A stretch of DNA of 48,561 nt. It comes from a virus. The notes under the pieces are model-generated. The model was not told the DNA's origin and made no database searches. It saw only the letters and a list, made by a program, of their open reading frames with translations. Each line of letters begins with the position of its first letter. Within the stretch, counting starts at the first letter, position 1. The DNA lies in IMG/VR virus record IMGVR_UViG_3300028653_000001, positions 1 through 48,561 of that record. One strand, given 5' to 3'. Position numbers and translations under genes: made by a program. Shown piece by piece: positions 128-36,153 of the stretch.

Positions 128-417
128 ATACAATCAGCTATCTGCGCAATGAAGGCTTTGATATACAGGGAGCAGAAAAAGGCAAAGGTTCAGTCGAGGA
201 TGGAATCCAGTTCATCCGTTCCTTTGAAGCGATTGTTATACACCCTCGATGCCGTGGGGCGCTTGACGATTACCGGAACTATCGCTGGAAGCAGGATAAA
301 AGCACAAACGAAGTTTTGCCGATTCCATTAGACAAGAGCAATCATGCATGCGATGACGGAAGGTATGCACTTGAGCCATACATAAAGAACAAAGTGAGCG
401 CTTGGGATGTCATCTAA
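1..417 (+). CDS. terL: Terminase large subunit, C-terminal part
   Basis: This is the 3' part of the packaging motor gene that begins at 47637 and crosses the circle junction. The frame enters at base 1 and ends with TAA at 415-417. Joined through the 127-bp overlap, the protein is about 404 residues, a normal length for the PBSX/Terminase_3 type. This part holds most of the RNase H-like nuclease: the acidic ADSERP motif (about residue 304) lies here, and a late acidic stretch (ACDDGRYALEP) could supply the last metal ligand. The first ATG in this fragment (70) is internal and not a real start. The stop overlaps the portal start by 11 bases, which suggests translational coupling. Confidence 0.93.
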   Translation, partial: DNKLYVWQEAYGHGVEITELPAFVRSVPGTDKWKIRADSERPDTISYLRNEGFDIQGAEKGKGSVEDGIQFIRSFEAIVIHPRCRGALDDYRNYRWKQDKSTNEVLPIPLDKSNHACDDGRYALEPYIKNKVSAWDVI

Positions 418-1843
418 AAAGAAAAACGCAGCCGCCGAACACAAGCCCGTCGAGAACGACTTTGAGGGCTGGGGTTACGAGACGGCCATGAATCTCAACA
501 CCAACAGTCCTATGGCTGGAGTGTTTGATGGCCCTGGCATGAGCGCTTACGGCGGAACTGCAGCATTGAGCCAGCCCTGGGAATTGGCCTACAACAATAG
601 CTATTACTTCGTCAGCCTGAACAGGGTGATGTGTACCTACGCGTACACCATGCACGGAGTCATCAGAACGCTGGTTGACCAGCCCGTGTACGATGCGTTC
701 CGTGGTGGTATTGAGATAAAGAGTGATGAGCTTTCTGAGGACGATGTGCAGAGCCTTGTCAAGGCAATGAAGGAGCTTAAGGTCATTCGCGCAGTCACTG
801 ACGCCCTGCGTTGGGACAGGCTCTACGGTGGCGCAGGCATCATCATCAACACCAATCAGAATTACGGCACAGCCTTGCGCACCAGCAGCATCAAGCAAGA
901 CAGCATGCTCGAGTTCATTCCTGCCGACAGGTGGGAACTTGTGGGTCAAACCCTTGATGACAGCGGCCTGCCCGGCTGGATGGCCAAGATGCCGCGCTTT
1001 GACTACTACGGCCGGAAGCTTGACCCAAGCAGAGTCATCCGTGTTGTGGGTGAAGAAGCGCCCAGCTTAGCACGCCGCCGTCTGCAAGGGTGGGGGATGA
1101 GCGTTATCGAATGCGTGCTGCGCGAAATCAACAGCTACCTCAAGAACCAGAACGTGCTCTTTGAGCTGTTAGACGAAGCCAAGATTGACGTCTACAAGCT
1201 CCAGGACTTCAATAGCAAAGTACTCAGTAAGCTGGCACAGGGCAAAGTGGTCAAGCGTATAACTATGATGAATATGCTCAAGAACTTTGCCAACGCCATC
1301 GTACTGGACGCCGAAGATGACTACGAACAGAAACAGCTGTCTTTGGAGGGGGTGGCAACTACTCTGGTACAGATACGAATCGGCATAGCCGCTGCAGTTA
1401 GGATGCCCCTCACCAAGTTGTTCGGTCTCTCAGCGTCTGGTTTTAGCTCGGGAGAGGAAGACACCGAGAATTACAACACGATCGTCGAGCACGAGAGAGA
1501 ACGCGCTCGCGAAGTGTTGGACGTCGTGCTTCCAATCGTATGCAGACGTCAGTTTGGCTTTGAGCCTCAACTGGAATACACGTTCAAGCCCTTGCGTGTA
1601 CTGAGCGCCATCGACGAGCAGAACGTAAGGTCGAGTAAGTTGGCAAACCATACAACCCTCTTCTCCATCGGGTACTATACGGACCAGGAGTTCGACAGAG
1701 CTCTGCACGAGGATAGAATTGTCGGTCAAAGAACCGAGGTGGGTAAGGGGCTGCGAGCAATCGAACCGCCCATGGCTCCCAACTCGACGTGGCAGAACCC
1801 TCAGCAGCCAGTTACTCCGAAGAAAGTGAAAGAGGATTCGTAA
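407..1843 (+). CDS. Portal protein (DUF1073-like)
   Basis: A 478-residue protein that should form the dodecameric ring at the packaging vertex, through which DNA enters and to which the neck attaches. It resembles the DUF1073 portal group: an N-terminal region around YAYTMHGVIRTLVDQP, the RLYGGAGIII strand near residue 145, and the signature PLTKLFG followed by GFSSGEEDTENY near residues 333-352, then a long helical C-terminus. It lies directly between terminase and the MuF-like gene, the usual portal position. Databases sometimes label DUF1073 proteins 'anti-CBASS Acb1 family'. No Acb1-type phosphodiesterase domain is visible here, so portal is the better call. The stop shares bases with the next start (TAATG). 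Confidence 0.88.
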   Translation: MSSKKKNAAAEHKPVENDFEGWGYETAMNLNTNSPMAGVFDGPGMSAYGGTAALSQPWELAYNNSYYFVSLNRVMCTYAYTMHGVIRTLVDQPVYDAFRGGIEIKSDELSEDDVQSLVKAMKELKVIRAVTDALRWDRLYGGAGIIINTNQNYGTALRTSSIKQDSMLEFIPADRWELVGQTLDDSGLPGWMAKMPRFDYYGRKLDPSRVIRVVGEEAPSLARRRLQGWGMSVIECVLREINSYLKNQNVLFELLDEAKIDVYKLQDFNSKVLSKLAQGKVVKRITMMNMLKNFANAIVLDAEDDYEQKQLSLEGVATTLVQIRIGIAAAVRMPLTKLFGLSASGFSSGEEDTENYNTIVEHERERAREVLDVVLPIVCRRQFGFEPQLEYTFKPLRVLSAIDEQNVRSSKLANHTTLFSIGYYTDQEFDRALHEDRIVGQRTEVGKGLRAIEPPMAPNSTWQNPQQPVTPKKVKEDS

Positions 1844-19576: not shown

Positions 19577-21901
19577 ATGAAACGAACAATACTGACTCTG
19601 GCCCTGGCGATAGGGCTGATTGCTTCCGCAGTATTCGCTGGAACGAAGGTTCCTTCCAAGGATGTTACGGTAAACACGACATCATTCCAGAAGAACCTGG
19701 GAGTGAACGACTCTGACGTGCAGCACGCGCTCCAGACCATCGATAACATCACGATCGTCTCCACCGAATTGGATCCGGTCTGGAACGCGTCGAAGGCGGG
19801 GTACTTTAATAAGAGCTCTGACACTACCGACAATGCAACCCAGGGTTCTGTCAACAAGTACGCCAACACCACCAAAGAAGACAACGGCCAGACCGCGTAC
19901 ACCTGGGGCAACCATTCCCAGGCTGGCTACATCAAGAACCTGACCTCATTCACCACCGATGATCTGACACAGGGTTCCACCAATAAATACGCCAATGTAA
20001 CCGCCGAAGGACTGGCTCACTCTCATGCCAATAAATCGGTGCTGGATAGCATTCAGGAAGCACTGACTACCGCCCTCAAGTCTACATACGACAGCGTAGT
20101 CACCCTGGTCAATGGCAACTACACCACATGGAACGCCAAAGCTGACTATTCCTTCGGCGCTCACAACTTCACTGGCACCGGAAATATGACCTCCGGCAAC
20201 TTTACCACTACAGGAAACGTCACCGCCGTGAATATGACCGCCACTAACTTCCTCGGCTCAGGATCAGCACTTACCGGGGTACTTCATACGGAAACCGACC
20301 CCCTCTCACTTCATCTCGACCAAACCACACCTCAGACTGTTGTGAATGGTGTTCCATTATTCAATCTGGGTATCAAATCTCCTAAACTCTATCCGGCTGT
20401 CGACTCTACCACAGCGGTACAGATAAATAAGGCTAACGGTACGACGAATGTAATGAACATCGACACCACCAATGGCAGGGTGGGGATTGGGACGGTGGCA
20501 CCAAGTCAATTGCTGAATATTGTGGGTGGGACAGATAGCAGTAACTTTTTAAGTGTAGATAGGTCTGACCATGCTAATTGTTTACAGGTTACCTCAGGAG
20601 ATTATGATTATTCAGTTACGAAAGCGGATAATATATATGTAACTAAATGTTTGGGGGTTGGGTATGAAGCAGTAAATTCTAGAAATATACCTTTCGCTGT
20701 TGGTAGAAAATCCGCCAACACCGCCACCATCCAAGAGATGTTGCGGATTGCTACCACCTCCACTGGCACAGTAGCGGCTAATTTTGGGGCAAGTATTGAT
20801 ACATATTTGGAGGACGCAAGTGGTAATGCCGCACAGCAAGCAAGCTCGATTGGAACAATCTGGACTACACCTACACATGGGGCTGAGAGTTCGGCGATTA
20901 CATTTAGTGGCGTAACCGCTGGGGGAGCGTTGACGGAGTGGGGGAGGATGTATGGGGCGAGTGCAGGGACTGGTGGAACGTTAGAGGTGGACGTAAATGG
21001 AATAAGGACAACAGGATTACCAATAAATGGATTACTATTAAATAATACAGCAGCTTCTACTGCTGGAGTTACTACTCAATTCCCTCCTGCTATAATTTTC
21101 AAAGGTTCTAGTTATACTTCGGGTGCTAATCATACAGTTCAATTAGCTTTGGCATTTGAACCTGACACAGGTTTTAGTGATGCGGGATATTTTAAAATAT
21201 TTACACAAAAAGATTCAGAGGGATGGATAGAAAGATTAAGTATGGTTAGAGGATATTTTACTTCCCAATTGGGATGGAGATGGCAAGGTTCTAGTGAGTC
21301 AATTCCTACCTCAACTGGCTCAATATATTATACTACCGACTTGGCTACGGCTGGAACTGATAGATATTCTCCCCCTATAATAATGTATGGTCAAGGTTGG
21401 AAAACTGCTGCTGCAGCGGGTTCACAATCCATGTCTTTAGGACAAATTCTCGCTCCTGAACAGGGAAATACTAATCCTATTGGTGTTTATAAAATGTTTT
21501 ATGGAACAAATGCTATTACTCCAGTTGAAACCAATGAACTCTGCCGCTACGAATGGGGCGACCGTCTTGGAGTAGACTTCAATAAATTAGCCATAGCAGG
21601 GTATCATTTTAATGTAACCGCCCCGATAACTTTCCAAGCGGCAGGTAATGGTATAGTCCTCAAACAAGGTGCGAATGGTAAGTGTGGGACATTTGTACTC
21701 ACGGGCGTTACCCCCGTTAGTGTTGCCAATTCTTCCATAGCGATAACTGACGTGATAATGTTTTCGTTAAACACTGTGGGCGGTACAGTAGGTGCGCATC
21801 CGCAAATTCAAACTATAACCGCTGGGGTAGGATTTACAGTGAGTGGGAGTGCATTGGACACAAGTACGATGAATTACGCAATTATCTCTAACGCAAGTTA
21901 A
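19577..21901 (+). CDS. Large tail fibre/receptor-binding protein with signal-peptide-like N-terminus
   Basis: A 774-residue fibre protein. The first 22 residues (MKRTILTLALAIGLIASAVFAG) are a textbook Sec signal with an A-x-A cleavage site, odd for a virion part assembled in the cytoplasm. Residues 30-280 carry stalk repeats (TQGSVNKYANTT, TQGSTNKYANVT, TTWNAKADYSFGAHNFTGTG, NFLGSGSALTG). Residues about 310-655 (20500-21540) use AT-rich codons, unlike the flanks. The end (VSVANSSIAITDVIMFSLNTVGGTVG, GSALDTSTMNYAIISNAS) is a fibre tip type seen in many phages. The AT-rich middle suggests exchange of a receptor-binding module. Confidence 0.75.
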   Translation: MKRTILTLALAIGLIASAVFAGTKVPSKDVTVNTTSFQKNLGVNDSDVQHALQTIDNITIVSTELDPVWNASKAGYFNKSSDTTDNATQGSVNKYANTTKEDNGQTAYTWGNHSQAGYIKNLTSFTTDDLTQGSTNKYANVTAEGLAHSHANKSVLDSIQEALTTALKSTYDSVVTLVNGNYTTWNAKADYSFGAHNFTGTGNMTSGNFTTTGNVTAVNMTATNFLGSGSALTGVLHTETDPLSLHLDQTTPQTVVNGVPLFNLGIKSPKLYPAVDSTTAVQINKANGTTNVMNIDTTNGRVGIGTVAPSQLLNIVGGTDSSNFLSVDRSDHANCLQVTSGDYDYSVTKADNIYVTKCLGVGYEAVNSRNIPFAVGRKSANTATIQEMLRIATTSTGTVAANFGASIDTYLEDASGNAAQQASSIGTIWTTPTHGAESSAITFSGVTAGGALTEWGRMYGASAGTGGTLEVDVNGIRTTGLPINGLLLNNTAASTAGVTTQFPPAIIFKGSSYTSGANHTVQLALAFEPDTGFSDAGYFKIFTQKDSEGWIERLSMVRGYFTSQLGWRWQGSSESIPTSTGSIYYTTDLATAGTDRYSPPIIMYGQGWKTAAAAGSQSMSLGQILAPEQGNTNPIGVYKMFYGTNAITPVETNELCRYEWGDRLGVDFNKLAIAGYHFNVTAPITFQAAGNGIVLKQGANGKCGTFVLTGVTPVSVANSSIAITDVIMFSLNTVGGTVGAHPQIQTITAGVGFTVSGSALDTSTMNYAIISNAS

Positions 21902-23900: not shown

Positions 23901-24346
23901 TAAAAGTAGCACTTTGTTTATTGTTGGCAGCCCTATGGCGCATAGGTGGTTGGCACTGGCGCGTGGCCCGCATAGTAGTGATACCGGCCATAGTGGGGGT
24001 ATTCTACGCTTTTACGAGCCCGCTGCTTGGAGTTCTCATGTTTGTGAGCGCCAACATTATAAGGCTGGGCGATGGTAATTGGAGTCCTGAAGATGACCCC
24101 AAGCCCAGCTTCTTCGGTTGGCTTACGCACGATCGCACAGGAGTATGGACAAAGGGGCTCCATGGCCTTACTTGTGGATTAGTGGCCCCCTTGCCGCGCT
24201 TCTTCATTGGCGGGATGAACGTGTGGCATTACCTGCTGTGGGCTATCGGCTTTGGAGTGGTCAGTGCCCTCTTGCGCCTTACGAAGCAGGTCTGGATTGA
24301 AGAACCTTGCCGTGGTGCATGGTTTGCCGGTGTGATGTTTATCTAA
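23897..24346 (+). CDS. Integral membrane protein, unknown function
   Basis: A 149-residue protein starting at GTG 23897, with AAGGGGG seven bases upstream. It has three to four membrane helices (VALCLLLAALWRIGGWHW, IVVIPAIVGVFYAFTSPLLGVLMFV, VWHYLLWAIGFGVVSALL). It is the last gene of the rightward unit and overlaps the stop of the leftward unit by four bases. No family recognised; superinfection exclusion or lysis accessory are possible. Confidence 0.6.
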   Translation: MIKVALCLLLAALWRIGGWHWRVARIVVIPAIVGVFYAFTSPLLGVLMFVSANIIRLGDGNWSPEDDPKPSFFGWLTHDRTGVWTKGLHGLTCGLVAPLPRFFIGGMNVWHYLLWAIGFGVVSALLRLTKQVWIEEPCRGAWFAGVMFI

Positions 24347-25053
24347 CGGCCACCGCTGCGCATTGCTTCCTGAATAGTACGCACGTCGTTCCACAGCTGC
24401 GCGCCAAGGTATTCTTGCACCGCAGCTCTGCCGTATATCTGCTGTTCCTGCCCGTATACCCACTTATAGTTGGCATCGAGCATGCGCTTGCCATTAATCC
24501 AGTGGCGGTGTTCGATGACCACGTCCTTGGTGTGCCAAAGCATATTGAGCGCCTGCAATAGGTGCTGAAAGTAATCATCGATACCAATATGCTGGAACTT
24601 GGGCCATATCATGTGCCCCAGGGCCCGCACTATGTTGCCACTCAACACGCAGCCGGAGGGGTGCTGGTACGCGGCCCATTCCGTAAGGTTGTCCTCTGCG
24701 GCTGCCATTCCCCAGCCGTTGCCCTCCCTCTCTACTATGCCTACGAGCTCAGCATCCCAGGCAGTGGTGATGAAGAAGTGATCGTCGTTGACAGGCGCGT
24801 AGTAGTCATAGCCAGGAAACTCCCTGCATAGGTGATTGTAAGCCTGGGCCAGATAAAGGCGGCTCCCCATAAGCACGTTGATATAACGGCCTTGCACTAC
24901 ATGCGCGTACTCAGCGAACTTTGGGTCATCAGTGTTGAGGTAAACCGCCATATCGGTGCCGGGGCTTCTTGTTTCAGCCCAACTATCGAGCATGTCGCGC
25001 AGGGTGCTGGGTCTGCCGCGTGTGGGGCACATGGTGAGTATGCGTTTACCCAT
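24343..25053 (-). CDS. GT-A-type glycosyltransferase 1
   Basis: A 236-residue protein with GGAGGTAGAACGCC before ATG 25053. The N-terminus (RILTMCPTRGRPSTLRDMLDSW) is the first nucleotide-binding strand and loop of GT-A (GT2-like) enzymes. YDYYAPVNDDHFF near residues 82-94 is the DxD-type metal site (NDD at 89-91). It should transfer a sugar from a nucleotide donor; the acceptor is unknown. It is the last gene of the leftward operon and its stop meets the late unit tail to tail. It overlaps the next glycosyltransferase gene by eight bases. Confidence 0.72.
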   Translation of the reverse strand: MGKRILTMCPTRGRPSTLRDMLDSWAETRSPGTDMAVYLNTDDPKFAEYAHVVQGRYINVLMGSRLYLAQAYNHLCREFPGYDYYAPVNDDHFFITTAWDAELVGIVEREGNGWGMAAAEDNLTEWAAYQHPSGCVLSGNIVRALGHMIWPKFQHIGIDDYFQHLLQALNMLWHTKDVVIEHRHWINGKRMLDANYKWVYGQEQQIYGRAAVQEYLGAQLWNDVRTIQEAMRSGGR

Positions 25054-25834
25054 GGCGTTCTACCTCCACCCCTTTAAGGATGAGCAGGTCTTTATCGCCC
25101 TTCTCACCGAACTGCTCAACCAAGCGCGGGTAGATGGGGTTGCTCTTGTCGATGATTCCTGACTGCAGCATGGCCCGCGCTTCGGCATTGTAAAGGTAAC
25201 TACGGTTCCACGGGGTTACATGCCTATGGCACAGCTGTACGTCCAGGTGGACAAAGGGCTGTATACCTGCGTCCAGCAACTTCTGACAGAACAGGCTGTC
25301 GCCAGCAACGCCTTTCTCGAACGGGTAGTACGGTGTGAGCATCTTCTCGAATATGCTGGTTTTGATAAGAGTAAACGGGGTGGCCGTCATGTCGCATGGT
25401 ACGATGGGGCTACCATCCTTTCCGCGCCCTACTTCTTCAAGCTGCATGAGCCTGTTCTTGTATATCTCTGGCAGTGTTTTGGTGGGGTCAAGGCGCTTAA
25501 ACGCGCACCGGCTGTAAGGGAAGCCAGCTATGAACATGGCACCGCTGATGAACTCCTTGTCGGCGTCTAACAGCTTGTTGACGAAGCCCGCCTGGAATCC
25601 CCACACGTCGTCATCCATGCGGAAAATGTAGTCAGCTCCGTGGGTTATGGCGACGTGGGCTATTTCATTGTCGGCCTCCGTTACGGGTCGGCGATAAGGG
25701 AAGTACGTGTTCACCATGAAGCCACGATTGCAGAACTCGTTCATGGCTCCAAGGAACGTAGCAAGCCACTGCCCAGGGTCAGGGCAAAGGCCGAAGGTGG
25801 GACACGCCATCAGTATGCTTTTGCGGTTTTCCAT
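25046..25834 (-). CDS. GT-A-type glycosyltransferase 2
   Basis: A 262-residue protein from ATG 25834 (an in-frame ATG at 25840 touches its own GGAGGA site, so the second ATG is better spaced). SILMACPTFG is the first strand, YPFRRPVTEADNEIAHVA-like residues follow, and ADYIFRMDDDVWG gives the DxD-type metal site (DDD at 74-76). The C-terminal VHLDVQLCHRHVTPWN region resembles acceptor-side segments of GT2 enzymes. It sits in a row of three related but divergent glycosyltransferases, suggesting that several sugars or positions are handled. Confidence 0.72.
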   Translation of the reverse strand: MENRKSILMACPTFGLCPDPGQWLATFLGAMNEFCNRGFMVNTYFPYRRPVTEADNEIAHVAITHGADYIFRMDDDVWGFQAGFVNKLLDADKEFISGAMFIAGFPYSRCAFKRLDPTKTLPEIYKNRLMQLEEVGRGKDGSPIVPCDMTATPFTLIKTSIFEKMLTPYYPFEKGVAGDSLFCQKLLDAGIQPFVHLDVQLCHRHVTPWNRSYLYNAEARAMLQSGIIDKSNPIYPRLVEQFGEKGDKDLLILKGVEVERHG

Positions 25835-25836
25835 TG

Positions 25837-26496
25837 TCATTCCTCCACCTTGCAGTTGCTGATTATATTACGAATAGTTTCATCTTCCATGCTTACGTTT
25901 CGGTTGTGGCTGCAGCCCTTGATATCCCAATTGACGTATATCTTGAATCCCAACTTTTGACACTTGGTGTAGAAGATATTGTCGGGCGGAGTGTTCTGCC
26001 ACTGCGATTCTATCAGTGGCGACCACTGGAACAGCTCCTCCCCCATATCTCGAAAAACGTCGAACACCCTCTTCGAGATAAGTATGCAGGCAAAGCTGGT
26101 TGAGAAAACCTCCTCGGTGCCCGACTTCTTCATGGTGTATCCGCGCGGTAGCTTGCCGGGCTGAGCCTTTTCCCCGGTGTTGGCATTGAGGTGCATATCC
26201 TTATTCTTTGGGTCATAGTGCCAGGTGGGAACCGATACGATATCCTTGCCACTGGCGATGAGCTTGTCGAGCGCATCATTGGGCGGGGCCACGTCTGCAT
26301 CCATGAATAGGACGTAGTCAAATTCGCGGAAGGGCAACTGATTGACTATCTGCCGCTGCGCCATTTCAGCGCTGAAACTGCACACCCCGAACACCAGCTG
26401 GCAGTCATGCTTCTTGTATTGTTCAGCGATGAACCGCACAAGCTCATGATACACGTCGTTGGTTCCGCGGGTGGGCAAAGCCAGAACGATTTTCAT
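25837..26496 (-). CDS. GT-A-type glycosyltransferase 3
   Basis: A 219-residue protein with TAGGAGGAACGCTCA before ATG 26496. KIVLALPTRGTNDVYHELVRF is the first strand and helix; REFDYVLFMDADVAPPNDAL holds the DxD site (DAD at 66-68). The later WDIKGCSHNRNVSMEDE ends the catalytic domain. All three glycosyltransferases lack membrane helices, so they act in the cytoplasm. Neighbouring radical SAM genes suggest unusual sugar or peptide substrates. Confidence 0.72.
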   Translation of the reverse strand: MKIVLALPTRGTNDVYHELVRFIAEQYKKHDCQLVFGVCSFSAEMAQRQIVNQLPFREFDYVLFMDADVAPPNDALDKLIASGKDIVSVPTWHYDPKNKDMHLNANTGEKAQPGKLPRGYTMKKSGTEEVFSTSFACILISKRVFDVFRDMGEELFQWSPLIESQWQNTPPDNIFYTKCQKLGFKIYVNWDIKGCSHNRNVSMEDETIRNIISNCKVEE

Positions 26497-26508: not shown

Positions 26509-27678
26509 CTATACGAAGTTGAGGTGTACTGGAGGGTTCGCCATAAGCCTGCCGTAGTTTCCTGGGCCGCCGCACATCTTCACCAGCGCCTCGTCAAGAT
26601 CTCCATGATACTCCTTTGTGAGGATATCCATAAACTTGAGGCATTCGCAATGCCTGCACTGGCCTGTACAGAGCTTGTCGAGGGGTGTTGCAGCAACCTT
26701 GCGCACAATGTTCCAATAGTGGTCAGAATACAGGATGCCGCACAACTCTTGTTCGTTGACATTGCCGTAGCAGTACTCCGCGTTGCCGAACATAAACCCG
26801 CAAGGGTAGCAGCCTCCGTCTCCAGATATCTGAAAGAGGAATGGCAGGTCAATGCAGCGGTCAAAGCCCCAGTGCCTGCGCTTCGTTATTTCCGTGGAGT
26901 CCTTCATGGCCCCCCACTTGACGATTATCTTGGTTCGCTCGTTGGACATAGTTGCCGCCTGCAGGAGATCGTCTTGGGCCTTGCCGTATTCATCCATATC
27001 GAAGTGCATGGGCATGCCTGCGCCACCATCGCTGAACTGCTTAATGACGAGGTAGTCAACGCCCCAGTCCACTGCGGCCTTGGCCAGGGGAAGTATCTCG
27101 CTGAACCCGTCAGGAATGAGTACGGCCTGCAGCCCGATGGTGCAGCCATTGTTGTGCGCTACGGCATGTTTGACCACTGCTTCTATCTTGGCCAGGCTTC
27201 CAGCGGGGGCACCCATTATGCTGTCGTACTTGTCTATTCCTGAGATGTTGAAGCGCAGCCAGGTGCAGCTTGATGTGAGCGAGTCAACCTTGCCGAGGTT
27301 CCCATGCAGCAGGAGCCCATTGGTAGCCACAGCGCAATCAACGCCAAAGGCGTGCAGGTCGAATGTGAAGTCCAGTAAGCCCTCGTTCATGGTGGGCTCG
27401 CCATCACCGATGATGGATACCGACTTCACTCCGACCAAGCCGGCGTCGCGGGCCAGGCGACGGAGGGCCGACTTGCTGATGAACTGCGTTCCTTTGCCCT
27501 GCTTAACACCGTAGCAGTAGACACACTTGATATTGCACGCCTTGTGAATTCCCATGTCAATGTGGATGGGCATTATGCGTTCACCATTAAGGAACTGCTG
27601 CAAGCGCTCCTGGTGCCAAAGCAACTTGCACCCATCGAACAGGAACTTCTTAGGTTCACTCGTGAGATAATCAAGCAT
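26509..27678 (-). CDS. Radical SAM protein with SPASM-like C-terminus (A)
   Basis: A 389-residue protein. CNIKCVYC gives the C-x3-C-x2-C site (Cys48, 52, 55) for the 4Fe-4S cluster that cleaves S-adenosylmethionine. IGDGEPTMNEG replaces the usual GGEP loop. The C-terminal region has several further cysteines (RCIDLPF, DGGCYPCGFMFG, LCTGQCRHCECLKF), as in SPASM/twitch enzymes that bind extra clusters and modify peptides, sugars or alcohols. Its position between the glycosyltransferases and the other radical SAM gene points to one shared pathway. The exact reaction cannot be read from the sequence. Confidence 0.82.
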   Translation of the reverse strand: MLDYLTSEPKKFLFDGCKLLWHQERLQQFLNGERIMPIHIDMGIHKACNIKCVYCYGVKQGKGTQFISKSALRRLARDAGLVGVKSVSIIGDGEPTMNEGLLDFTFDLHAFGVDCAVATNGLLLHGNLGKVDSLTSSCTWLRFNISGIDKYDSIMGAPAGSLAKIEAVVKHAVAHNNGCTIGLQAVLIPDGFSEILPLAKAAVDWGVDYLVIKQFSDGGAGMPMHFDMDEYGKAQDDLLQAATMSNERTKIIVKWGAMKDSTEITKRRHWGFDRCIDLPFLFQISGDGGCYPCGFMFGNAEYCYGNVNEQELCGILYSDHYWNIVRKVAATPLDKLCTGQCRHCECLKFMDILTKEYHGDLDEALVKMCGGPGNYGRLMANPPVHLNFV

Positions 27679-28519
27679 GTTTGTTCAGCCTCTCTATTTT
27701 AACGCTGGTGTGACCGCCCTGTTGCAGGCGGTTGGTTTTGATTTTCACGTCGCAGGGGTTGCAGGTGCCATAATACTCACAAAGGCGCGCCTCATCAAAG
27801 CTGATTAACTCATCGTTTATGTGGAGCAGGCTTTCGCACCCAGCATAAAGCAAGGAATGGCAGCCATGTATGAGGCCGTCCGGCGCTATCAACAACTCGC
27901 TGGGGTGGCACAGCACGTTGAAGTTCTTATGGCCCGTTATGGCGTCAGGGTACTTATAGGTGCCATGCGTGTCATCCAGGTATTCCTTCATGCGGAAGTC
28001 AATGTCAACCTCCTCACATATAGCCCGCATTTCGCTGTTCTCGCATATCATGTCAGGATGGTTCAGTGCCCAGATCCCTACTGAATAATCCTTCTGCTTC
28101 AGTGTATAAACCTTTTTGGCCAGTTCGTTGGGATTCATACCCATGTGGAATGAGAAGCGTATGCTTGCATAAGGAGCCTGGCGCTTGAAAACGCTTGTCC
28201 CCACCTTGGCCATAAAATCATACACGTCGAACTGTCCGTTGGTTAGCAGGTCAAGGTGCTTGCCTGCTGCGTGCAGCATATTTACCAACTGGTAGAACTC
28301 TTTGTGCGTGGTGGGCTCGCCGCCCTGCAGGGTGATGGGCAAGTCCTCACGGGTTTCAATGCGGCTGAGCCCATCGAACCATTCCTGCGCGCCCATCTCA
28401 ATGCGCGGAATGAACTCACCCTGCCGGTTGATGCAGTAAGGGCACGCCAGGTTGCAACGTAGGGTTATAAACGCGGCGACGTAATTATAGTTTTCGGGTA
28501 GCTTAATCGGTGGCTTCAT
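27671..28519 (-). CDS. Radical SAM protein with SPASM-like C-terminus (B)
   Basis: A 282-residue protein. The start at 28519 is chosen because AAGGAG lies six bases before this ATG; the frame is open upstream only inside the next gene. CNLACPYC (Cys22, 26, 29) is the cluster site and LQGGEPTTHKEF the SAM-binding GGEP motif. C-terminal cysteines (NVLCHPSELLIAPDG, GCHSLLYAGC, GTCNPCDVKI) suggest a second cluster. It is distinct from protein A in sequence, so two separate radical reactions are likely. It overlaps both neighbours. Confidence 0.82.
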   Translation of the reverse strand: MKPPIKLPENYNYVAAFITLRCNLACPYCINRQGEFIPRIEMGAQEWFDGLSRIETREDLPITLQGGEPTTHKEFYQLVNMLHAAGKHLDLLTNGQFDVYDFMAKVGTSVFKRQAPYASIRFSFHMGMNPNELAKKVYTLKQKDYSVGIWALNHPDMICENSEMRAICEEVDIDFRMKEYLDDTHGTYKYPDAITGHKNFNVLCHPSELLIAPDGLIHGCHSLLYAGCESLLHINDELISFDEARLCEYYGTCNPCDVKIKTNRLQQGGHTSVKIERLNKHA

Positions 28520-29018
28520 AGAGCTCCTTATATTCTGTGAGCAGTAACGGTTGCTTACATCCCTGCGCCAACCCATAGTAGAACTGCACCCCGCGCACCG
28601 TAAGCACGCGCACGGAAACGATTGACGGTTCGTAACTGAATAGCGGTGAGTAGTCTTGCTTGTGCTGCCAGCCAGGGTCTAACGGGTGGTCATTGCCAAC
28701 GCAGGCCCGAATTATAATGGGAATCGTGAGGCCGTAATGCTGCAGCTTGCCCACATGGTTGAATAGTGCGTCAGCAGCAGCCAGCATGAAGTCCATGCGC
28801 TCAAAGCACAGCACCGGCAGGAACCCATTGAGGGCCAGGCCTATTGCAACGCCCACCATCAAGTTCTCCGCCACGGGCATCTCTATGCAGCTGGCCTCGC
28901 AACCTTTGAGGGTTCCATTCATCTGCGGGCCGCACTTGGTGTTATAACCAACAAAGCGCACCTTTGGATTACTTGCCAACTGCAGCATTTCCTTGTGTAA
29001 GGCCTCTTTGTATGTCAT
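28503..29018 (-). CDS. ThDP-enzyme E1 beta-like subunit (pyrimidine-binding domain only)
   Basis: A 171-residue protein; ATG 29018 is preferred over GTG 29021 by spacing from GGAG. CIEMPVAENLMVGVAIGLALNG followed by LPVLCFERMDFMLAAADAL matches the pyrimidine domain of the E1 beta/transketolase family, with Glu51 where the cofactor-activating glutamate lies. E1 beta is normally about 325 residues and carries an extra C-terminal domain; it is absent here. With the alpha gene next door it should make a minimal alpha-beta thiamine-diphosphate enzyme that moves two-carbon or acyl units. The substrate is unknown. Confidence 0.78.
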   Translation of the reverse strand: MTYKEALHKEMLQLASNPKVRFVGYNTKCGPQMNGTLKGCEASCIEMPVAENLMVGVAIGLALNGFLPVLCFERMDFMLAAADALFNHVGKLQHYGLTIPIIIRACVGNDHPLDPGWQHKQDYSPLFSYEPSIVSVRVLTVRGVQFYYGLAQGCKQPLLLTEYKELYEATD

Positions 29019-29638
29019 CACATAAACTCCACATGCTTGCCTGTACCGACGTGCGGGTAGTTAGGCGTGTACTTATACCTGTAAACGTATTCAGGCCCGT
29101 TGAACACCTGCGGCCATGACTGTCCTTTTCCCCAGCGCTCCTTGTACGGGGTGGCCACGCTCCTATCATTATCCTCTATAATGAACGTGATGGGCAGTTC
29201 CTGGCCAGCCGCATAGCGCAAAGCCTCAAAGAACCAGCCTTGGTCGCAAGCCCCGTCGCCAACAAAACAGTGTACCCGTTCATTGCCACCTGCCAGCTTT
29301 ATTCCAAGGGCAGTTCCAACAGCAGGGGCACAGTTACCACCAACGATGCCCGTTGATACGAACCTGTTGGGCAGGTCAATGATGTGCATGCTGTTACGCC
29401 GGTTGACTATCTGGTCGAACAGGTACTCCGTGTTGTCAGTGTGGAGCAGGTAATGGTACGCGTTGCGGTGCGTACTAAACACCCAGTCGCCAGGCTTGAC
29501 GAACATATAGAAGTAGTTTAGAAGCTCAACCTCATTGCCTCCGCAGAAGTGGTGCGGGCAGCGAATGCGGCCAGCTTCCCACTCCCTCTTTATACGTTCC
29601 TCAAATGCGATGAGCTCCTTTATTCCCAGCTTATTCAC
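29018..29638 (-). CDS. ThDP-enzyme E1 alpha-like subunit (PP-binding domain)
   Basis: A 206-residue protein that starts at GTG 29638. It follows the E1 alpha pattern throughout: HHFCGGNEVELL, KPGDWVFSTHRNAYHYLL, NSMHIIDLPNRFVSTGIVGG, and the thiamine diphosphate site GDGACDQG (GDG at 127-129) with Asn157 exactly 27 residues on. E1 alpha proteins are usually 320-370 residues, so this one lacks the C-terminal part. No E2 lipoyl partner is encoded, which argues against a pyruvate dehydrogenase and for a transketolase- or aldehyde-transfer-like reaction. The stop overlaps the beta start. Confidence 0.82.
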   Translation of the reverse strand: MNKLGIKELIAFEERIKREWEAGRIRCPHHFCGGNEVELLNYFYMFVKPGDWVFSTHRNAYHYLLHTDNTEYLFDQIVNRRNSMHIIDLPNRFVSTGIVGGNCAPAVGTALGIKLAGGNERVHCFVGDGACDQGWFFEALRYAAGQELPITFIIEDNDRSVATPYKERWGKGQSWPQVFNGPEYVYRYKYTPNYPHVGTGKHVEFM

Positions 29639-30155
29639 CCTGGCCGCCCTCCTCTAACGTCTTGGCCTCGAATTGCATTCCCGCATTGGCGTAGAACTTG
29701 TCGTAAGTATCCTCGGATAGGTGCTTTATCTTCTCCTCGACGAAGCCGATGCGCTTATCCAGCATGTTCTTGCTCTCTATACGAACCTTGTTGGTGTTGC
29801 GTATCATTATTGCGCGCCTTCCCACTTCTGAAAGGGGAATACTGCCCTCTGCTGCATTGCGCACGCTGTGTTCCAAGTCCCAGATAGTCAGGTTAGCCTG
29901 GGCAATGCGGATGACGGCCAACAAGAACTCACCATCTATGCCGGATTGCTTGCACCAGCCCAGCATGTCTGCCAGTTCTTTTCCGGCCCCCGGAAGCTTG
30001 CACAGCGCCTTTTTTGACACAATGGTCATCCGGTCAATGAACTCACCGAACGTGTAGGTGAATATTGGGCGACCGCCCTTCTGTTGGTACATCTGCCTTG
30101 CTATGGCATGAACCGTACTTTTGTACCCCTCCTTGAGCGCTTTACCGCAGTTCAT
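29631..30155 (-). CDS. Small helical protein, DUF4254/DUF6165-like
   Basis: A 174-residue protein. TFGEFIDRMTIVSKKALCKL near residue 35, TIWDLEHSVRNA near 110 and the IMIRNTNKVRIESKNMLDKRIG helix resemble the short helical families (G-E-x-I-D-x-x-T-I, then W-x-L-E-x-x-x-R, then N-x-x-R-x-x-x-K-N) that occur beside glycosyltransferase genes in bacteria and phages. The match is by pattern only. It overlaps both neighbours by a few bases, so it is part of the sugar cassette. Confidence 0.5.
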   Translation of the reverse strand: MNCGKALKEGYKSTVHAIARQMYQQKGGRPIFTYTFGEFIDRMTIVSKKALCKLPGAGKELADMLGWCKQSGIDGEFLLAVIRIAQANLTIWDLEHSVRNAAEGSIPLSEVGRRAIMIRNTNKVRIESKNMLDKRIGFVEEKIKHLSEDTYDKFYANAGMQFEAKTLEEGGQGE

Positions 30156-31056: not shown

Positions 31057-31269
31057 TTAGGCTACCCTTTTGACGTTGACTGCTCGCGGCCCCTTTTTTG
31101 AATCTTCGCTTTCAAACTCGACCGGATCGCCTTCATTCATCGTGTCGAAGTCTGTGGCCATGGAACGGTGGAAGAAAAGGTCGCCGCCCTTCTTACCGTC
31201 AACAACCTCCGCAGTGATGAACCCAAACCCGCGCTCATTGTTCAGCTTCTTGATGATACCCTTTGCCAT
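31057..31269 (-). CDS. csp: Cold-shock-domain protein (CspA-like)
   Basis: A 70-residue protein with a complete cold-shock domain: [17 protein letters not shown] (RNP-1-like RGFGFI) and GGDLFFHRS (RNP-2-like), then [21 protein letters not shown]. It binds single-stranded RNA or DNA and could act as an RNA chaperone or antiterminator on phage transcripts. Its ATG lies inside the end of the acyl carrier gene (28-base overlap), so the two are likely coupled. Confidence 0.9.
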
Positions 31270-31553
31270 GTCTGATACCCTCCTATTTTGGTTTTGTTAC
31301 GCGTTGACTTCACCTTTGCCGGAACCCTACTCTTGATGTATTTGACGACGTCGCCCACAGTTTTCATCTTTGCGGCGTCTTTGTCGTCAATGAGGATCGA
31401 AAACTCGTCCTCCAATTCCATGACAAGCTCGATCATGTCGAGGCTGTCCGCATGCAGATCGTCCTTCAGATTTGCCGACATGGCAAGCTGATCGTCTTTG
31501 CATCTCAGCTCTTTCTCGATTGCCCTTTTGGTGCGAACCTCAACAGAACTCAT
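31242..31553 (-). CDS. Acyl carrier protein
   Basis: A 103-residue protein with AAAGGAGGTGGGCTT before ATG 31553. [21 protein letters not shown] contains the DSLD site, with Ser37 for the phosphopantetheine arm, and [11 protein letters not shown] is the last ACP helix. Typical ACPs have about 80 residues; here a basic tail of about 25 residues ([11 protein letters not shown]) is added, perhaps because the frame runs into the cold-shock gene. It needs a host transferase for its arm. It could carry an acyl group for the ThDP/radical SAM pathway, or change host lipid synthesis. Confidence 0.88.
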
Positions 31554-34731: not shown

Positions 34732-36153
34732 TTATACCTTGAATAACTGGTTGCGCAGGTGCTTGCGAATCGGCTCATCGTAAATGTAGTCAATGTCGCC
34801 ATCTGCGTTGACGCCTACAGGCTTCAATATGCCCTGCAGGTAGTAGAGGACTCCACGGTTCGTCTTGAGGTCATCCCAACCGGCGCGCAACTTCTCGGCC
34901 CAGGTTGTGTTGTCCATGGCCTTGGCCGCAGCACCTGTTCCGAAGCACATATCATGCAGGCTCTGCGTGTGGGCCCAGGCAGGAATGTAGTCCTTAGCTG
35001 ACACCCTGGTGCCAGGGTTCTCCCGTGCCACCACTACGGCGTTGGTGGCATTCTGCCGCTGCCAGTTGCCAAATATGGGGTCATCGGGTCGTATGCCGCA
35101 GCAGCATCCGGTGTCATTGAGGTGCTTGAACAACGGGTCGCTGCTGGCAAATGTCATGCCGCAGGCGTGGGCAATGTCGCGGGCAGCGTAGAAGATATCC
35201 TCTGCCAGCTCTCTGCGCAGCCGGTTGCAGGCCCCGCCCTTGATGCGGTTCACCGCGTATATCTTGCGCAGCGGCATGGCCAGCAGTTCTTCGAGCATGT
35301 CCCAGTCCTTCTTCTTGTCGGGCTTGATGCTACCAGGTGTGAATATTGCTTCCATGCTCACGGCTTTGGCACCGGCTTCCGCGCAGCGCTCGATGAGTTC
35401 CTTGTACGCCTGCGGGTGTGCCGGGGTGCGGTCGCTCAAGTTGGGCATGATAGGCCTGAACCGCAGGCTGGTGCTGACCCCGCGCTTGCTCAACGCCGCC
35501 ATAGTGGCTATGCGCTTGCTGGGGCTGGGTGCTTTGCGGTCAATCTTCGTGAGTAGGTCGTCATCAATACTGATGATGCTGAACGCCACCCAAAAGATTT
35601 CCGGCAGGCTGAACGCATCGAGGTATTCAGGCGTTGAGAGCAAGTCTCCCTTAGTGCTGATGCGGCACGGCTGGTTATACTTCTTGAACAGTGCGGGCAG
35701 CTGCAGGGCCCAGCCTTGCTGGCGTTCGATGTTGTCGAACGAGTCATTCAAGGTTCCCAGCTGAATGGGGCAGGGCTGCTTCTGGTCGCGCTTGAGGGCG
35801 AAAAACATGGCCTTACCTTTGTCATCCTGGGCTTCACCACTGAGAATACGTTCCAGCCTGCCGATGTTGAACTGCTTCAACTTGGCGGCGGCAGCATTGT
35901 GCCCCTCCAAAAAGTTTGAGAAGCAGTAAATGCAGCTGTAGCTGCACATGCTATGACTATCCATGCTCACGGGCAGGGCACAGTCAAAACCATCGGCGGT
36001 GAAGCGGATTCCATCGTAGCTGGTGGGCAGCTCTTGCTTGGCCCCGGCGCAGTTGGTCATGGTGCTGCAACCACGGCATTCGGCGCAAGTTCCCACGCGC
36101 TTGTAACGCTGTTCGAGCTTAGACCGCTGCGGCTTCGGACTTGGGCATGCCAT
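34732..36153 (-). CDS. Radical SAM protein, SPL-like
   Basis: A 473-residue protein with GGAGGTAATCA before ATG 36153. CSYSCIYC (Cys70, 74, 77) is the 4Fe-4S site; the layout CSYSCIYCFSNF with LGTLNDSFDNIE and CRISTKGDLL downstream is that of the SPL-like group (spore photoproduct lyase relatives). An extra N-terminal cysteine cluster (CAECRGCSTMTNC at 23-35) could bind another metal site. It overlaps the ParB-like gene by 35 bases, and recombination genes flank it, so a DNA-linked reaction (repair or base modification) is likelier than sugar work. Confidence 0.75.
   Translation of the reverse strand: MACPSPKPQRSKLEQRYKRVGTCAECRGCSTMTNCAGAKQELPTSYDGIRFTADGFDCALPVSMDSHSMCSYSCIYCFSNFLEGHNAAAAKLKQFNIGRLERILSGEAQDDKGKAMFFALKRDQKQPCPIQLGTLNDSFDNIERQQGWALQLPALFKKYNQPCRISTKGDLLSTPEYLDAFSLPEIFWVAFSIISIDDDLLTKIDRKAPSPSKRIATMAALSKRGVSTSLRFRPIMPNLSDRTPAHPQAYKELIERCAEAGAKAVSMEAIFTPGSIKPDKKKDWDMLEELLAMPLRKIYAVNRIKGGACNRLRRELAEDIFYAARDIAHACGMTFASSDPLFKHLNDTGCCCGIRPDDPIFGNWQRQNATNAVVVARENPGTRVSAKDYIPAWAHTQSLHDMCFGTGAAAKAMDNTTWAEKLRAGWDDLKTNRGVLYYLQGILKPVGVNADGDIDYIYDEPIRKHLRNQLFKV

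Follow-up and report, generated by a model that had tools for sequence, protein, structure and literature searches.

A tailed phage encodes a pair of short thiamine diphosphate (ThDP) enzyme subunits that belong to the E1 family of 2-oxo-acid dehydrogenases, and the same kind of pair is found in many other viruses and in some archaea and bacteria. Because the pair is nearly always encoded beside a probable sugar-oxidizing enzyme, it probably builds an unusual sugar instead of burning pyruvate. Tentatively, we favor the explanation that the pair is a reduced E1/transketolase-type ligase or lyase for carbon-carbon bonds, which acts with a dehydrogenase in the biosynthesis of phage glycans; we infer its substrate, the direction of its reaction, and the destination of its product.

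The ThDP pair and its relatives

The window is the whole of IMG/VR record IMGVR_UViG_3300028653_000001 (48,561 bases), which represents a tailed phage; its genes include those for portal and head proteins and for RecE/RecT. An initial annotation, made from the sequence alone, recognized the ThDP pair at 28503-29638, but it overlooked the phage nature of the record, the spread of the family, and the partner enzymes. The alpha gene (29018..29638, minus strand) encodes a reduced PP domain of the E1-alpha type, and the beta gene (28503..29021, minus strand) encodes only a PYR domain of the E1-beta type. Both subunits are short, as the initial annotation stated: alpha has 206 amino acids, and beta has 172 from its GTG start, or 171 (the original count) from the next ATG. 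The two genes overlap by 4 nucleotides, and both are intact.

In Pfam, alpha is a member of E1_dh (60 bits, with a cut-off of 22) and beta is a member of Transket_pyr (31 bits, with a cut-off of 27). The two proteins also match the two halves of a single 405-residue family, PHROG 34187: positions 11-201, in the N-terminal half, match alpha (E = 2e-46) and positions 237-405, in the C-terminal half, match beta (E = 2e-32). The assignments also draw on an AlphaFold2 model of alpha and on alignments of beta.

We scanned IMG/VR twice for relatives. The first scan gave 67 loci and the second gave the best 80 of 250 candidates; these sets overlap. The short pair, whether split or fused, is present in about 98 viral loci. 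Fused relatives in cyanophages include the 402-residue “transketolase central region-containing protein” of Synechococcus phage S-SM2 and Prochlorococcus phage P-TIM68; it belongs to the same family (PHROG 34187) but has a zinc alcohol dehydrogenase (ADH) instead of a radical-SAM protein as its partner. Short pairs are also found in cellular assemblies that are labelled as Pacearchaeota, Nanoarchaeota, archaeon, Deltaproteobacteria, Desulfobacterales, Nitrospirae, and others. Proviruses or binning errors may account for some of these cellular loci.

Among the relatives, alpha is mostly 204-223 amino acids and beta is mostly 171-183 amino acids, while the fused form has 388-402 amino acids in viruses and 423-427 in two cellular genomes. 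Other genomes encode longer, full-length E1-like cousins (mostly 312-355 amino acids for alpha and 325-371 for beta), and an alpha profile separates the two kinds, with over 200 bits for short forms versus about 77-133 bits for the full-length E1-like pairs. Because the short lengths are conserved in about 98 viral loci and in several cellular genomes, we rejected the possibility, raised with the initial annotation, that a frameshift had cut a longer gene. The pair is not debris. At three loci (L059, L081, and L146), long alpha or beta reading frames were considered as carriers of new domains; these look like upstream extensions of the reading frame.

The family was already known as an unnamed phage family (PHROG 34187). 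What is new is that it is a reduced variant of E1 with an interchangeable dehydrogenase partner. In the literature, whose coverage may have gaps, we found no earlier description of such a ThDP-dehydrogenase module from phages or DPANN archaea. In virome gene surveys, such genes are likely to be misannotated as pyruvate dehydrogenase or transketolase, and our analysis corrects this.

Cofactor-binding and catalytic residues

Alpha contains the GDG...N motif for Mg and diphosphate at residues 127-157 (GDG at 127-129 and N157). In a profile alignment, E52 of beta aligns with the glutamate of the TP-[LI]-[SN/T]-E motif of solved E1-beta chains, and on the basis of this alignment, E52 is assigned as the glutamate that activates the aminopyrimidine of the cofactor. 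The PP motif and the activating glutamate of the PYR domain both place the pair in the E1/transketolase group. Within the main clade, D128, N157, and H196 of alpha (alignment A1) and E52 and H120 of beta (alignment A2) are invariant, so the claim that the pair carries the cofactor motifs holds up. We identified H196 as the conserved histidine of E1-alpha from alignment A5 and by eye. The catalytic residues of both subunits align with the active site of solved E1 chains.

Two divergent short alphas (L090:7989-8591 and L130:8001-8585) have GDM where the PP motif normally has GDG. Near these genes we did not find the usual kinds of radical-SAM or ADH partners; a B12 radical-SAM protein is present there.

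Predicted structures and missing parts

AlphaFold2 gave confident folds for alpha (pLDDT 91.8, pTM 0.89) and for a fused relative, L053 (pLDDT 94.8, pTM 0.94). The best structural match for the alpha model is residues 33-268 of human pyruvate dehydrogenase E1-alpha (195 residues aligned, Z 20.5, rmsd 2.0). The beta half of the fused model matches residues 1-179, of about 325, of E1-beta (Z 22.7). The pair shares its family, folds, Mg/ThDP motif, activating glutamate, and histidine positions with the E1 enzymes of 2-oxo-acid dehydrogenases (human pyruvate dehydrogenase, 1ni4, and the Thermus enzyme, 1umd). Unlike those enzymes, it comes without an E2, and alpha is missing the C-terminal part and about 40 internal residues, which form a strand and the helix that carry DGND. 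The same differences are apparent in a profile alignment with the full-length cousins: alpha has a 37-residue gap at the DGND segment, before the last strand, and it ends well before the C-terminus of the cousins. Beta stops at the end of the PYR domain and has no transketolase-C (TKC) domain.

Over 356 residues, the 396-residue chain of L053 can be superposed on human transketolase (Z 21.7, rmsd 3.5). Because of this superposition, PP and PYR are predicted to pack as they do in the active enzyme. The description of the pair as a two-domain PP plus PYR enzyme without C-terminal domains is thus borne out by Pfam, by alignments, and by the predicted folds. Across many viruses and several archaeal and bacterial genomes, the E1/transketolase fold appears to have stayed under selection after losing all of the TKC domain and one internal strand-helix unit of PP, which bears directly on the requirements of a minimal ThDP active site.

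Among known enzymes of the transketolase group, the split-gene transketolase ChTK (6yak) is a structural match and is also encoded by two reading frames and assembled as alpha2-beta2 (PMC7661550), which is the assembly that we expect for the phage enzyme. ChTK differs in that it retains the TKC domain (its second chain has 312 amino acids) and a full PP domain. It was fair to call the pair one of the smallest ThDP enzymes, but it is not a record, since split decarboxylases with two domains, ComDE and RhiEF, have already been described (PMC12141560); comE is just 558 bp (PMC3787637). Like the phage pair, ComDE and RhiEF place PP and PYR on two short reading frames and lack the third domain (PMC12141560). 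They differ in belonging to the decarboxylase superfamily, in their substrates (sulfopyruvate and phosphonopyruvate), and in not having a dehydrogenase or glycosyltransferase setting.

Reduced or ancestral?

According to the initial annotation, the pair would be near the predicted ancestral unit of PP plus PYR. Phylogeny argues against this. In a tree of 85 alpha sequences, rooted with two DXS/transketolase sequences on a long root branch, the short forms are a single clade (97/90) and the full-length E1s lie on the sister side (80/84). The TKC domain is present in E1, DXS, and transketolase, and so is the DG[NH]D unit. Because the parts that are missing from the short clade exist in all of these groups, the outgroups included, the simpler reading is that the short family was reduced by loss and is not ancestral; the long root branch keeps this reading provisional. 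The TKC domain is regarded as an evolutionary addition (PMC7661550), so an ancestral origin would survive only if the root falls inside the short group.

An interchangeable partner, probably a dehydrogenase

In the 98 viral loci, we searched within 3 kb of the ThDP genes for partner enzymes. A radical-SAM protein is present at 77 loci and a zinc ADH at 18; three loci have neither, and none has both. The partners are concentrated next to the pair: the density is 0.465 matches per kb up to 1 kb from alpha and at most 0.02 per kb beyond 2 kb. A non-redundant check, with representatives below 75% identity and at least 3 kb of sequence on both flanks, gave 11 loci with radical-SAM, 11 with ADH, and one with neither.

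Also, the two kinds of partner occupy the same slot in several lineages, with gene orders of beta>rSAM>alpha or beta>ADH>alpha, and there were at least three swaps between them on the alpha tree. In a Pacearchaeota assembly (L072:8606-10246), beta and the radical-SAM protein form a single open frame of 546 amino acids. The exceptions to either/or are L153 and a Nitrospirae locus (L080), which carry both. Given that both enzymes are found in some cellular loci and in L153, they are not always substitutes. The either/or exchange predicts that the two enzymes share a reaction, which makes both of them testable, and it suggests that phages encode the synthesis of an unusual sugar.

In the window, the partner is a 389-residue radical-SAM protein with a C-terminal auxiliary-cluster domain of the twitch/SPASM-like kind (26509..27678, minus strand; Pfam Radical_SAM, with a sub-threshold match to SPASM). 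The family has a CxxxCxxC motif and four auxiliary cysteines, mostly with the spacing C-x17-C-x(41-47)-C-x3-C; the proteins from the window and from L080 vary slightly. In the window's protein, the CxxxCxxC cysteines are at 48, 52, and 55, and the invariant auxiliary cysteines are at 275, 293, 337, and 341. This combination, with a single domain for an auxiliary [4Fe-4S] cluster, is that of the BtrN group. BtrN, the radical-SAM dehydrogenase of butirosin biosynthesis, shares the CxxxCxxC core, the one auxiliary cluster domain, and the C-x17-C spacing with the partner. A profile of the auxiliary domain has BtrN as its top match (E = 4e-6), ahead of anSME. However, the match to BtrN is limited to this domain: with the whole protein, the top matches are SuiB and SkfB, and the core of the partner also resembles SuiB, SkfB, MoaA, and anSME.

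BtrN and a zinc dehydrogenase of neomycin biosynthesis perform the same oxidation, so this pair of enzymes is a precedent for the swap between radical-SAM proteins and ADHs. Because its family swaps with zinc ADHs in the same slot, we infer that the radical-SAM protein in the window dehydrogenates an alcohol to a ketone. It is probably a sugar or polyol dehydrogenase.

A second radical-SAM gene lies between this partner and beta (27671..28576, minus strand; 301 amino acids as listed; Pfam Radical_SAM). The gene more probably starts later, near 28519. It has relatives at L005-L010, L072, L076, L077, L079, L127, L128, L133, and L141, and this family also adjoins the ThDP pair in other viruses, in archaea, and in Desulfobacterales. 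Directly upstream of alpha is a conserved 174-residue protein (29631..30155, minus strand) for which searches of Pfam and PHROG gave no match. Its relatives are near ThDP genes at L007, L008, L010, L052, L079, L126, L127, and L133, and it is possibly an accessory protein. At 57 loci from freshwater-type viruses (L011:3032-3796 and similar), another conserved protein, of 254 amino acids, is encoded between a GT2 gene and beta; a Pfam search with it gave no match.

A possible role in sugar biosynthesis

Downstream of the ThDP pair, the window has three glycosyltransferase-like genes, all on the minus strand. The protein from 25837..26496 (219 amino acids) has weak matches to Glycos_transf_2 (below the Pfam cut-off) and to the glycosyltransferase family PHROG 12406. 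The one from 25046..25840 (264 amino acids) has weak PHROG matches and is kept in the nearest relatives (L005-L007). The one from 24343..25053 (236 amino acids) matches a glycosyltransferase family, PHROG 14945 (E = 1e-22), and is kept in L005-L007 and L141. We did not find a nucleotide-sugar or heptose gene in the window, and the glycosyltransferase calls are weak.

Other loci also have a sugar context. In S-SM2 and P-TIM68, the fused gene lies between a zinc ADH and genes for a carbohydrate kinase, a nucleotidyltransferase, and phosphoheptose isomerase. At the Nitrospirae locus, genes for radical-SAM, fused ThDP, ADH, SDR, and PfkB-cytidylyltransferase proteins are consecutive. Epimerase genes are also among the neighbors at the cyanophage and Nitrospirae loci. 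Full-length cousins are found with PfkB-cytidylyltransferase, SIS isomerase, NTP-transferase, and ADH genes in Prochlorococcus and Roseibium, and with PfkB-cytidylyltransferase and two radical-SAM genes in Aquitalea.

In the parts of PMC4425429 that were available to us, E1-like pairs without an E2 are proposed to add two-carbon branches in avilamycin and paulomycin biosynthesis. These pairs (AviB1/AviB2 and Pau11/Pau12) are likewise of the E1 type and act in a sugar pathway with dehydrogenase or reductase partners. They differ in being full-length (Pau11 and Pau12 have 325 and 345 amino acids) and in coming from bacterial antibiotic clusters; their chemistry is proposed, not proved, and those parts of the paper do not mention a radical-SAM partner. 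Given the sugar-gene context and the AviB/Pau precedent, we propose sugar dehydrogenation together with ThDP-dependent formation or cleavage of a C-C bond.

The mechanism might be as follows. Alpha (PP) and beta (PYR) would form one enzyme that binds ThDP and Mg2+ at the alpha-beta interface, where the ylide would form with the help of E52 of beta. The enzyme would make or break a C-C bond. In the most likely case, it would decarboxylate a small 2-oxo acid, for instance pyruvate, and the resulting two-carbon unit would be added to the carbonyl of a sugar. The partner (the BtrN-like radical-SAM protein here, or the zinc ADH in other viruses) would make that carbonyl, or later reduce it. The neighboring glycosyltransferases might then attach the product to a glycan on the host surface or the virion.

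More speculatively, these enzymes may be a new module that many phages have in common with minimal-genome DPANN archaea: a branched or extended sugar would be made by a reduced E1-type ThDP enzyme together with an exchangeable dehydrogenase, either a BtrN-like radical-SAM protein or a zinc ADH. In the minimal-genome DPANN archaea, the short ThDP enzyme is the only enzyme of the E1/transketolase type that we detected.

Alternative functions

The pair might instead be a transketolase-like ketol transferase or ketose-phosphate synthase. Instead of branching a finished sugar, it would provide an unusual ketose phosphate for nucleotide-sugar synthesis of the heptose type, which uses an isomerase, a kinase, and a nucleotidyltransferase. 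The PP-PYR gene order and the superposition on transketolase fit this function, as do the kinase, nucleotidyltransferase, and phosphoheptose isomerase genes that adjoin the fused gene in two cyanophages and the PfkB-cytidylyltransferase, SIS isomerase, and NTP-transferase genes near full-length cousins. But E1 is a better match than transketolase for both halves in sequence and for the single domains in structure, and heptose genes are missing from most viral loci, including the window, so we think that this function is unlikely. It is rather improbable that the pair is a simple non-oxidative decarboxylase of 2-oxo acids whose aldehyde product is used by the partner dehydrogenase, even though two-domain ThDP decarboxylases on two reading frames do work, as in ComDE and RhiEF (PMC12141560), and an aldehyde is a possible substrate for a dehydrogenase. 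By sequence, the family is E1 and not decarboxylase: the PDB matches are to E1, DXS, and split transketolase, and a weak match to Pfam's TPP_enzyme_C covers the shared motif only. The chemistry of the partner also speaks against a decarboxylase, as radical-SAM dehydrogenases of the BtrN kind oxidize alcohol carbons, not aldehydes.

The initial annotation doubted that the pair is a pyruvate dehydrogenase and reported no E2 partner, and both views are supported. Neither an E2 catalytic domain nor a lipoyl domain was found in the phage record, which may be incomplete. We also searched 13 cellular assemblies, which carry the short pair except for one (L103) with a full-length cousin; the E2 domain was absent from nine of them, including all seven from archaea, although these assemblies may be incomplete. 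In the seven archaeal assemblies, the short beta proteins are the only matches to Transket_pyr. Because no E2 was found in the phage record or in those nine assemblies, we rejected the idea that the pair is a functional E1 of a 2-oxo-acid dehydrogenase complex; a full-length E1-alpha with its C-terminal region is also lacking. A metabolic booster gene whose product relies on the host's E2 and E3 would be consistent with the pair's place in the E1 family and with the report of E1-beta as a virome gene group (PMC3877843). It is highly improbable given the assemblies without E2, the missing C-terminal regions of E1, and the neighbors, which are radical-SAM enzymes, ADHs, and glycosyltransferases. 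As large portions of E1 are absent, the pair could be viewed as the decayed and inactive remnant of a host E1 gene, but the reduced architecture and the invariant catalytic residues recur in the viral loci and in several archaeal and bacterial genomes, and the predicted folds are confident, so decay is hardly credible.

Other genes in the window

A few other genes are worth describing. An acyl carrier protein (31242-31553, minus strand; Pfam PP-binding and PHROG 5934) was considered as an acyl acceptor. Its relatives are absent from all of the other loci that we searched, so it is probably unrelated to the ThDP pair. We also considered a defense system: PADLOC gave only weak, viperin-like matches to the radical-SAM cores (36-40 bits) and none to alpha or beta. 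A third radical-SAM-like protein (34732-36153, minus strand; 473 amino acids), with the motif CSYSCIYC, is unlike the two beside the ThDP genes. Among phage records, the nearest relative of the portal protein (407-1843, plus strand) is from Bdellovibrio phage phi1422 (37% identity). Finally, a 774-residue protein from the tail region (19577-21901, plus strand) has the C-terminal domain of a K1 capsule lyase and is a candidate capsule depolymerase or receptor-binding protein.
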